Positions 3,581-7,630 of a stretch of DNA of 64,000 nucleotides are shown here, piece after piece. Under the pieces are notes generated by a model. That model saw only the letters and a program-made list of their open reading frames with translations, did not search any database and was not told the origin of the DNA. This DNA is from Branchiostoma floridae. Taxonomy: Eukaryota > Chordata > Leptocardii > Amphioxiformes > Branchiostomatidae. Position 1 is the stretch's first letter. Every line of letters begins with the position of its first letter. Both the position numbers and the translations under genes were made by a program. The stretch is taken from assembly GCF_000003815.2 (NCBI RefSeq), contig NC_049980.1, forward strand, positions 5,708,461 to 5,772,460. Reading direction: 5' to 3'.

Positions 3581-3617
3581 ATGAGTGCAGGGGTATAAAA
3601 GGGAAAGATATTATCAC

Positions 3618-3960
3618 AAAAAGGCGCACAGTTTGTCTTTAGCAAGACACCATAAAGTAGCCCTACCGGTCGAAACTCATCTAAAGCCTGTACCGCGCCA
3701 ATCGCGACACTCAAACCCAAATTCTTACAAGGCTCTACCTTTTCACAAAGACTGCTACAAACATTCCTTCTTCCCACAAACCGTGAGAGATTGGAACTCT
3801 CTACCGTACGAGGTCACGGAGATCACAGACGCTCCAAAGTTCAAGGAGGCAGTTCTCCGACGCCTCAGGGGACATTAAGGCGCAGCACTCCCCCTGGACG
3901 CTTTGCCCCAACTGAGGGGCGTTGTCCAGTACCCAATCAAGATCAAGATCAAGAAGACTT
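3618..3960 (+). mobile_element. LINE 3' fragment (RT C-terminus plus tail)
   Basis: The frame ending at 3878 encodes the C-terminal signature of CR1/Jockey-like LINE polyproteins: a basic stretch, then HSFFPQTVRDWNSLP and a closing KFKEAVLRRLRGH before a TAA. About 70 bp of 3' UTR follow and end in a short GATCAA tandem (about 3938-3956), the kind of simple-repeat tail that LINEs copy by target-primed reverse transcription. It is a 5'-truncated dead copy. The exact clade cannot be called from this piece. Confidence 0.8.
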
Positions 3961-5404
3961 TGGGGAGGAAATTAAAAAGGTGGTTGGCAGAAACAGGCGA
4001 AAATTAAAGTCGGGTCAATTAGGGACAGTAGGAAGGGTATGAGGGTGTTGAGATATAAAGAAGAAGGTATCTTTACCCTAAACACACAACCATCCTCTCT
4101 AATTTCTTATGGCTTGGGAAAAGTACTCGCCTCGCTCTCTGCTCAGGGATGGAGACTTTCCGCACTCCTTATCCCTCCATCACCTGTCTGGGGCGCGGGG
4201 TATGGGTGTGGTGGTATGAATCTTCCACTATATCAATCTAACCATGGCAGAATTATAGTTGACCAGCGTTTGATGTCCAATTAAACTTAAGGTTAGCAAG
4301 GAGGTTGAAAACCTTCTTGAGGTTAGTTATATACCCTGTTACAAAGAAAACCTTCCTGTGGATGCGGGTTTACCTGCAATGATGATTTCAGCCGTTTAAC
4401 GGCGCTTTTCTTCTTAAGATACACCAGCCTAAAGGATACACAAAACTTTCTTGTTCCTAGATCCTCATTCTTGCGACAAAAAGGCTTGTCCAAACAAGAA
4501 ATACATCTTTATGTACAAAATTCGTCTTTGAATACAAAAGAAAAGAAAGACATAGAAAAGAAATATTCTAATGAATAAAGACGCACTTACTCCCTGCAAA
4601 TCAGAGTTGCTTGGAGTGTATTGACTCAAGACAGATGCTAAAAATGCCCGCAAAGATCCGGCCAGCACAGTGTCACACTGTGTACGACTTGAAGGACATG
4701 TTGCAATACCAACCAGTGTAGATAGGTGGCGCTGTGAGACCTGTAAAGTCATGTCCAAACTTTGTAATGTTTACACATTTATTCCAGCCATGTAACTTTC
4801 CTCTTACGCTACTTGTTTGTTCTAATTGTGTTTCATCTACAAATGAAAAGAAGTTACGAATGTGTGCCTTGTATGTCAGGAAGGTGGAAATCGGGTTCTT
4901 GGTCCCTTAGCATAAAGGCCCCCTCTCACTTGACGTGCGGCACGCTTGCGGCATTGCTGCGTTCGTTCACTGAGGCACTGTTGTGTTAATTTCGCCGATT
5001 TTGTCTTGCACTCACACTGACGTGCGGCACTGTTGCGTTTCTAGACTAAATGAACAGCTGTGGAGTTCATCAATCCACGAAGCTTGGATATACCTCTGAC
5101 ATTTTGTGTATTTTTATGTCTTTTATATAATTCTTTTTGCTCCCGAAAGCTACCCGACCGGGTCACGGTTTGGAAATGTGACCTTAGCCATAGCGTTGGT
5201 AGAAACGTTACCAAAAAAACAACTGATTTTTGAGCACATGTAAAGTATTCTTAAAGCTTACGTAAAATCATACTTGCATAAAAAATGCGCCTTTACGCAT
5301 GCTTTTCGTGCAGTAAAATCTTGACTGTTGATCAGAAGTCTTATGTAGCAATCACCACCGTAACGGTAGTAACGACTGGTTCCCTCCTTTCTTCATCCTT
5401 TCAG
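3961..5404. other. intergenic or intronic DNA before the Patched-like exon
   Basis: No supported gene. At 4925-5045 there is a short direct repeat of a GACGTGCGGCAC motif. A minus-strand frame at 4591-4758 ends at a GTAAGT donor-like site but has no partner exon or homology. This is probably intron of the Patched-domain gene that resumes at 5405. Confidence 0.45.
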
Positions 5405-7630
5405 GTGTCGGTGTGGACAACATGTTCATCCTGCTAGCGGCGTGGAGGAAGACCAACCCGTTGGACAGCGTGCAGGACCGGTCAGCCAACACCTACGCCG
5501 AGGCCGGAGTGTCCATCACCATCACGTCATTGACCAACGCCTTAGCTTTCGCCGTGGGCGCCATCACAAGCTTCCCGGGCGTCCGCGTGTTCTGTATGTA
5601 CAGCGGCATAGCTATCGTGTTTGCGTACTTGTTTCAGCTTAATTTCTTTGGGGCCTGCATGATATATGACGGTTACAGAGAAAAACAGAATCGACATTTC
5701 CTGACATGTATGAAGGTCCCAATAATTTCAAAAGATGACCAGACCAGTTGTTGTCAGCAATCTTGCTGTAGGGGCGACCCAAATAAGGCAGGGGTCGGAC
5801 AGGACGGCAAAGATCACAATGACCACCTCATTATGTTATTCTTTAAAAAGTACTACGGGCCTTTCTTGACAAATGTGTGGGTAAAAGTCGTAGTTATGAT
5901 TGTGTTTCTGGGGTACCTGGGCGTCGCGATTTGGGGGTGCGTCCAGCTGATGGAGGGTGTCCAGCTCAGTAAGCTTGCCGGCGACGCCTCGTACGTTGCC
6001 CGCTTCCTCGAGCAGGACGACCGCTATTTCAGCGAGTATGACGTCAGAGTCGCTGTGGTCGTAACAGAAAAATTAGACTACTGGGACCCTGACGTGCAGG
6101 ATCGAGTTGAGAACATGTTAGCGGAGTTTGAGGACACTGCGTTCACGTATGGAAAGAACGTGTCCGAGTCATGGCTACGCGATTACTTGGCATATATAGA
6201 CCGGATCTGCTCCAACCCCATGCTACCACCTTCGCAACAGTTGAACCTTACTGATAAAGATTCCTTCATAGAGTGCCTCAGAGACCGCTTTCTTAACGTG
6301 CAAGGGTTTACCAAATATGGTCATGACATATTGTTCAATGAAGACGGTACTGAAATCATAGCCAGTCGGTTCTTCGTACAGACAAAGGAAATTGACGGCA
6401 CTCTGAAGGAGAAAAACATGATGACAAAGATGAGAGAATTAGCCTCTGGGGCATCTGTAGAGGCGATTGTTTACCACCCAGCGTTCGTGTATTACGATCA
6501 GTACATCGCCATTCTACCCAACACCTTGCAAAACTTAGGTATCGCCACAGGAGCCATGTTGGTTGTTTCTCTCTTCCTCATGCCCCACGTAGTTAACGCC
6601 GTCTGGGTCACTCTCGCCATTGCGTCTATCTGCACGGGGGTGCTCGGGTTCATGACGCTCTGGTCCGTCAATCTAGACAGCGTTTCCATGATACATATCA
6701 TCATGTGCATCGGCTTTTCCGTCGACTTTTCGGCTCACATCGTATACTCCTTTGTCACGGCTAAGGAAAGTAATCGTGACGCCATAGTTGTGCATGCGCT
6801 GTACAGTCTGGGTGTGCCGATCCTTCAGGGGTCAATATCAACCATTCTGGGTGTAGCTGCGCTAAGCATGGCCCCCTCGTACGGTTTCCGGACCTTCTTC
6901 AAAACTGTGTTCTTAGTAGGGCTGGGTATCGGTACAGCGTACCGGTACAAAACCGGTTTTTCTTATTGGACCGGTCCAGAAAAACCGGACCTGAAAAAAT
7001 TAGGTGGACCGGATGTTGGACCTATTAGAAAATTAGCAGATTACTTGATCAGGTATTCACACGTTTTGGTGCTTGCAGGTGGAAGAAAATAACAAGAGTG
7101 AAGTAGAAAAGTTTTATAGTCATTTCTACCAAGTTTTACAGTCAATCGTACAGGCGCAGTTAGCGTTGTAGGATTTTAAGACGCCAGTGTAAGTCTAATA
7201 CTCCACCAAACAGATTTCTTTGTAGTGAAATGGACCATTAGAATGAGTCATACTGAATCAGGTACAGGTTCAGGTCCGGACCTGGACCTGATCCTCTGGA
7301 CCTGAACCGGACCTGGACCTGAATTTCTGTACCGGTACCCACCCCTAGTTCTTAGTCATCGTGTTCGGCCTGGTGCACGGTATTGTCTTCCTGCCTGTCA
7401 TGCTCTCCTGTTGGGGCCCGCAAGGGGGCGCGGTAAAGGTGAATGGAAACAGGCTGAGTGACGTGGCAAGAGCACAGAACAGAAACGAAAACCCGTTGAT
7501 GACCGTTAGTATGAAACTCTGGCTCGACCATTTAAAAGAAGACAATAGACAAAGAAACAAGGGGACAACTGAAAGTCAACAAAATCTGACTGCGAACCCG
7601 GAAATGGGTTTTTCATTGAAGCCGATCTAA
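5405..7630 (+). CDS. Patched domain-containing protein, PTCHD3-like (3' exons; interrupted by a MITE)
   Basis: This is the C-terminal part of an RND/Patched-family polytopic membrane protein with a sterol-sensing domain. A CTTTCAG acceptor opens the exon at 5405 in phase 1, reading GVGVDNMFILLAAWRK, the SSD signature. Two membrane segments follow, then a Cys-rich loop (SCCQQSCC), a TM (VWVKVVVMIVFLGYLGVAIWG), the second large extracellular domain (RYFSEYDVRVAVVVT) and the final TM cluster, ending SYGFRTFFKTVFL at 6915. The frame resumes at 7349 with FLVIVFGLVHGIVFLPVMLS, a typical Patched ending, to the TAA at 7628-7630. Upstream exons are not visible. The family includes PTCHD3 and nematode PTR proteins, with transport or sterol-related roles; the substrate is unknown. 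The split at 6917-7347 is a hAT-type MITE, so the allele is broken unless the insert is spliced out. Confidence 0.88.
6917..7347. mobile_element. hAT-type MITE inserted in the Patched-like coding exon
   Basis: The 431-bp insert has 21-bp terminal inverted repeats with two mismatches: it starts TAGGGCTGGGTATCGGTACAG, and the reverse complement of its end starts TAGGGGTGGGTACCGGTACAG. An 8-bp direct repeat, GTTCTTAG, flanks it at 6909-6916 and 7348-7355. The TSD length, its nTnnnnAn pattern and the TAGGG termini fit the hAT superfamily. The interior has subterminal GGACCTG/ACCGG repeats and no transposase, so it is non-autonomous. Removing the element plus one TSD restores an uninterrupted Patched frame. 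A diverged relative lies at about 34440-34737. Confidence 0.92.

Follow-up and report, generated by a model that had tools for sequence, protein, structure and literature searches.

The window analysed here, a stretch of 64,000 nucleotides of the Branchiostoma floridae genome (C2:5708461-5772460; the genome searched comprises 513.4 Mb in 431 contigs), carries the second exon of a two-exon Patched/PTCHD-like gene. This last coding exon (5405-7630) is split by a hAT-type MITE. The features at the site are as follows, in window positions, with slashes marking splice junctions:

5405-6916, + strand: exon 2 of the Patched/PTCHD-like gene before the insertion, encoding the SSD and the C-terminal RND half to the middle of TM12
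6909-6916, + strand: left target-site duplication (TSD), GTTCTTAG, whose final base supplies the G of the would-be GT donor (TTA/GTAGGG)
6916-7348, + strand: candidate intron of 433 nt by its geometry, if splicing falls exactly at the element ends
6917-7347, + strand: hAT-type MITE of 431 bp, with 21-bp TIRs (TAGGG...CCCTA, 90% complementary) and no transposase
7053-7058, + strand: cryptic donor CAG/GTATTC in the element (4.7 bits; 28 copies aligned)
7077-7078, + strand: strongest cryptic acceptor in the element, TGCTTGCAG/GTG (7.1 bits)
7090-7092, + strand: TAA closing the frame when the element is retained
7189-7194, + strand: strongest cryptic donor in the element, AGT/GTAAGT (7.1 bits)
7348-7355, + strand: right TSD, GTTCTTAG, whose first G completes the would-be AG acceptor
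7349-7630, + strand: exon 2 after the insertion, encoding the second half of TM12 and the tail (93 codons plus stop)

Exon 2 matches the Pfam families PF02460 (Patched; E 1.2e-28) and PF12349 (E 7e-27), and its protein also matches NPC1 and PTCH1 (PDB). Alignment with NPC1 places the insertion point near the C-terminal end of that protein, a place we take to be the last transmembrane helix, TM12. Exon 1 lies outside the window, at about -14207 to -13508 in window numbering, 18.9 kb upstream of exon 2, which it joins in phase. Its intact donor (TAG/GTACGT) scores 8.0 bits and the acceptor before exon 2 (TTTCAG at 5399-5404) 14.7 bits; like all splice scores given here, these come from metazoan matrices that were not trained on this species. 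Intron 1 contains assembly gaps (N) at -11040 to 0 (11 kb) and at 1347-1905 (0.56 kb), and an open reading frame at 3585-3875 resembles, by eye, the C-terminal end of a reverse transcriptase from a non-LTR retrotransposon.

Short ends of the T/CAGGG type are a hallmark of hAT elements. The TSD of the window copy is 8 bp long and perfect, and its bases combine with those of the element to form dinucleotides typical of introns at either border, namely GT from G6916 and T6917, and AG from A7347 and G7348. Removal of 6916-7348 keeps 14 of the 16 TSD bases, adds 6 nt and leaves the frame open to 7630, with a gain of Phe-Leu that turns KTVFLVIVFG into KTVFLFLVIVFG. When the element is retained, 58 codons are read into it before the TAA is reached; two of the three phases are open at its left end, as read from the sequence. 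These results confirm most of what the first-pass annotation had described, namely a 431-bp hAT-type MITE with an 8-bp TSD in the last transmembrane region of a Patched-family gene, a GT donor and an AG acceptor made jointly by TSD and TIR bases with an in-frame gain of 6 nt, and an unspliced reading frame ending inside the element at 7092. The end sequence it had given, TAGGGGTGGGTACCGG, is correct for the right end and incorrect for the left, which reads TAGGGCTGGGTATCGG.

An empty site had been predicted for relatives of this locus, and the prediction is borne out by paralogs. The protein of the pre-insertion exon, used as query, gave 57 matches in the genome, from which 30 loci were taken; these include two that are the window gene itself and some that are second pieces of one gene, and those falling short of the site were left uncounted. 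In all 18 paralogous genes with an alignment across the site the exon is uninterrupted and the stretch matching FFKTVFLVIVFGLVHGIVFLPV is constant in length, which rules out an intron at the same place in these relatives; two extra residues in TM12 are absent from all 18. In L025, one of the 18, the match contains stops at other places. A further Patched-like locus, L027 (C16:7350189-7355481), fell short of the site in the search and is ungapped there when read by eye; about 3.7 kb, retrotransposon-like by eye, separates its pieces matching query residues 1-348 and 344-531. NPC1 has one extra residue at the matching place in TM12, so the spacing of this helix can vary within the superfamily. 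The genome matches listed for the exon protein include no allelic empty copy; the next matches either cover most of the exon at 89% or less or are fragments on C13 (95, 86 and 76%).

The element itself shows little divergence. Its nearest copy in the genome is 98% identical (among the best 40 of 3729 first-look candidates, which were scored), and among 28 aligned copies the window copy has private bases at 2 of 431 positions, a minimum in that changes of the source copy are not counted. Heterozygosity between amphioxus haplotypes has been reported as 3.2-4.2% (PMC12500494); set against this, 2 private positions in 431 would make the insertion younger than most allelic splits, so that it should be segregating. 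We therefore regard it as young and probably segregating. Exon 2 of the host gene was under purifying selection and the gene was functional until recently, with dN/dS for exon 2 of 0.16 and 0.18 against the near paralogs L012 and L019, and of 0.19 and 0.25 downstream of the insertion; comparison with L013 gave no ratio, there being too many synonymous differences.

Target preference of the MITE family

Genome-wide, 732 copies fit a degenerate pattern for both element ends. G is found on both flanks, on one or other strand, in 179 of these (84 and 95 on the two strands). The full GT...AG reading thus occurs in 12.2% of copies per strand, compared with the roughly 4% that base composition would give by itself (at an assumed GC of 0.41), an excess that fits the family's target preference. 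An AG at the end is present in 353 and 375 of the 732 copies on the two strands, giving an AG acceptor in 50% per strand. For an exonic insertion of this family, a GT...AG reading is a roughly 1-in-8 event and is unremarkable.

Flanking sequence was available for 86 copies with G on both sides (G...G copies), comprising the window copy, 80 fetched from the first 100 of the 179, and L004, L041, L048, L049 and L051. The sample therefore covers 85 of the 178 further G...G copies, which were compared with 20 other copies; L005 and L006 were left out, as their ends lie outside the pattern of the script. The 8-bp TSD is perfect in 73 of the 85 G...G copies. A boundary-fitting script found it perfect in 25 of the 28 best-matching copies and with one mismatch each in L003, L005 and L055, the right boundary of L055 being doubtful in this script. 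Because copies were picked for G at both ends of the TSD, positions 2 to 7 alone are informative: T occupies position 2 in 65, and A position 7 in 54, of the 80 G...G copies whose two TSDs differ at no more than one base, a count that leaves out 5 of the 85. A T2/A7 target bias has also been reported for the hAT element Hermes (PMC8721813).

This bias has a consequence for the reading frame. Across the 73 copies with perfect TSDs, none of 182 open TSD frames acquires a new stop at the spliced junction, since the bias usually makes this junction A/T. It had been proposed that any G-N6-G target entered by an element with T...A ends would behave as the window copy does, and this general rule holds in a form slightly stronger than claimed, no new stops having arisen. 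The rule is robust for frame but not for splice strength: in the 73 copies the donor is preceded by A in 49 and by G in only 15.

As to a hAT transposase with matching ends that could mobilise the family, the genome contains 33 matches to PF05699, none of them linked to the TIRs of this MITE family. At C2:34823268-34823573, GTAGGGGTGGGTACCGG repeats at multiples of 17 bp, as if a MITE end had become a 17-bp minisatellite.

Splice sites at the window copy and at a second coding-exon insertion

With the metazoan matrices, the exact donor of the window copy (TTA/GTAGGG) reaches 2.0 bits, which places it at the 77th percentile among the GT dinucleotides of the window, and the exact acceptor (CCCCTAG/TTC) 0.95 bits, against 8.0 and 14.7 bits for the gene's own intron. 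In addition to the cryptic sites listed above, the element contains donors of 4.9 (7262), 4.5 (7079) and 4.2 bits (7274) and acceptors of 6.6 (7153), 6.3 (7141) and 6.0 bits (6979). The GT of the donor at 7053 arises solely from the substitution T7054, which is private to the window copy among the 28 aligned. The AG of the right TSD (7354-7355; 4.5 bits) is a further competing acceptor, the use of which would shift the frame. In favour of the exact acceptor, 7274-7346 contains no other AG, and the CTGAA at 7319 could serve as a branch site. Among the 85 G...G copies, 71 have a competing CAG acceptor six bases before the exact one, and its use would add 6 nt beyond the exact splice, 12 nt in all, in frame; the 14 copies without CAG, the window copy included, have CCCACCCCTA there. 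On balance the exact splice is unfavoured, and to judge by site strength efficient exact removal of the element is unlikely.

The first-pass annotation had suggested a search for other copies lying in coding exons with exact GT...AG junctions, and one such copy (L122) was found among the 105 sampled besides that in the window. Coding status was judged from the 200 bp to either side of a copy, by whether a frame stayed open and by codon usage, with 7 segments run against Pfam, so short exons could be missed. At C6:16589904-16590338, the MITE lies in a coding exon of a ZIP zinc-transporter gene (Pfam Zip, E 6.9e-15), reads GT...AG in sense and has GTTCATGG as its TSD. The spliced form would be open through 132 codons, with FM doubled to FMFM. 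The retained form is stopped inside the element, which is read in the same phase as in the window copy to give a near-identical peptide. Its donor (ATG/GTAGGG) scores 6.8 bits, better than the window donor. Six bases before the exact acceptor lies a CAG that scores 6.5 bits, as against -0.3 bits for the exact site, and use of this CAG gives CCC TAG, a stop in that phase. Of eight further ZIP-like loci in the genome, six have alignments that span the insertion site (at about residue 65 of the query) with no stop.

Coding-exon candidates therefore number two, the window copy and the ZIP insertion, among 106 copies including that of the window, their splicing geometry being predicted from sequence. 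Apart from the shadow of the ZIP insertion, none of the 86 G...G copies is clearly coding on the strand that does not read GT...AG, and no clear coding-exon insertion was found among the 20 other copies. These counts do not justify a claim that coding insertions are enriched for GT...AG in sense, as two sense against no antisense cases are not significant and the window copy was pre-selected. Six other copies were considered as coding cases and rejected: L058 has a coding-like score and lies 64 bp behind a GTAAGT donor, and so is probably in an intron; L092 has an RRM exon beside the site, not across it; L133 is coding-like on one side alone, with no Pfam match; L103 has no Pfam match; L114 is unconvincing by eye; and L107 resembles a retroelement ORF by eye.

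Fate of the insertion allele

We consider it likely, from the features of the sequence, that this is a recent and mostly disruptive insertion with a latent intron geometry, that exact splicing is at most partial, and that the allele is segregating. On this reading, a young, non-autonomous hAT-type element has inserted itself into the final coding exon of a Patched-like gene that was functional, duplicating 8 bp, and the GT...AG borders are a by-product of a preference for GTNNNNAC-like targets combined with T...A ends. The splicing of maize Ds1 from exons, as described in the literature, speaks against this reading. Most transcripts of the insertion allele would then retain the element or use cryptic sites inside it, with the result that the protein is cut in TM12. 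Retention would add a 58-residue tail derived from the element, with a stop that falls within the last exon and may therefore spare the message from nonsense-mediated decay. Exact excision would occur in part at most, and the insertion would still be segregating, with the other haplotype empty.

It is rather unlikely that the insertion is instead a true newborn intron, with 6916-7348 removed exactly in most transcripts and a functional protein that has gained Phe-Leu in TM12. The exact GT...AG with its open frame speaks for this, as do the 6 nt added by construction and the freedom from new stops of all 182 open TSD frames in the 73 copies with perfect TSDs; the sites that would have to be used are nevertheless weak and their competitors stronger. 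Tolerance of a longer helix is suggested by the one extra residue of NPC1 at that place, yet two extra residues are absent from all 18 paralogous genes aligned across it. The ZIP insertion bears on the question in both directions, having a matching geometry but also the stronger CAG acceptor that leads to a stop. The competing CAG is likewise present in most G...G copies, although absent from the window copy.

Wider in scope, and decidedly unlikely, is the proposition that this hAT MITE family, with its many copies, is an introner in the making. Its preference for G1, T2 and A7, together with T...A ends, would turn roughly one exon insertion in eight into a GT...AG intron that preserves the frame, brings in no stop and adds exactly two codons, and at least two coding genes, the PTCHD-like and the ZIP gene, would carry newborn, segregating introns.

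We regard as very improbable an alternative exon ending, in which the element provides a cryptic exon or a new 3′ end, so that a regulated, shorter isoform lacks the second half of TM12. The retained frame does run 58 codons into the element before the TAA, cryptic sites are present, and the ZIP case shares the phase and almost the peptide; however, with two of three phases open, two cases in one phase are unremarkable, and TM12 is uninterrupted in all 18 spanning paralogs. A gene copy that was already a pseudogene, or a junction that is an assembly error, is highly improbable, since, although there is a single assembly and the 11-kb gap in intron 1 adjoins the window, both exons are open, the donor and acceptor of intron 1 are intact, dN/dS is about 0.16, and a misjoin would not produce a perfect TSD and TIR at that point.

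The origin of new introns in animals is an old question for which there are few fresh cases. The window and ZIP loci combine recent-looking insertions with an uninterrupted state known from paralogs and with 732 pattern-matched copies in the same genome, and retention, cryptic splicing and exact splicing are separable by ordinary RNA-seq at both. Even if both insertions are unspliced, a rate of 12% per strand, a gain of 6 nt and the absence of new stops provide a quantitative expectation for intron-making by hAT elements.

Relation to known transposon-derived introns

The ends of maize Ds elements are TAGGG-like TIRs. Insertions of Ds and Ds1 into maize exons have been described as intron-like and alternatively spliced, and as creating an intron de novo (Dennis 1988; Wessler 1991; Giroux 1994; PMC3260210), and Ds1 is reported to be a hAT element of about 400 bp. 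The window MITE resembles Ds1 in its hAT type, in its size of about 400 bp and in its position in a coding exon. It differs in that splicing is reported as observed for Ds1, whereas the window MITE is known from sequence, and in that the host is an animal and the element a different one.

Introners have been described as non-autonomous DNA transposons that insert into exons and take their splice sites, by several different routes, from the element and the TSD (Gozashti et al. 2022, PMC9860276). In the introners reported from Aureococcus, 8 bp of TSD and 4 bp of element add 12 nt, so that codons are gained (PMC9860276); the CAG acceptor of 71 of the 85 G...G copies would likewise add 12 nt. In contrast to those confirmed intron families, in the present case a clear coding-exon position, as a candidate intron, was found for one of the 105 copies sampled in addition to that of the window. 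From other hAT MITEs, which share the 8-bp TSD, the TAGGG...CCCTA TIRs and the T2/A7 bias reported for Hermes (PMC8721813), we found no difference save the exon location of the window copy.

No report of a spliced hAT MITE in amphioxus was found among the matches listed in the CC-licensed PMC literature. The geometry on which the first-pass annotation based a possible route to new introns is real and general, and the idea is not new in kind in view of the published accounts of Ds1 and introners. The transposon-to-intron mechanism is thus known in kind; an animal hAT MITE family that makes introns in this way would be a new instance of it.
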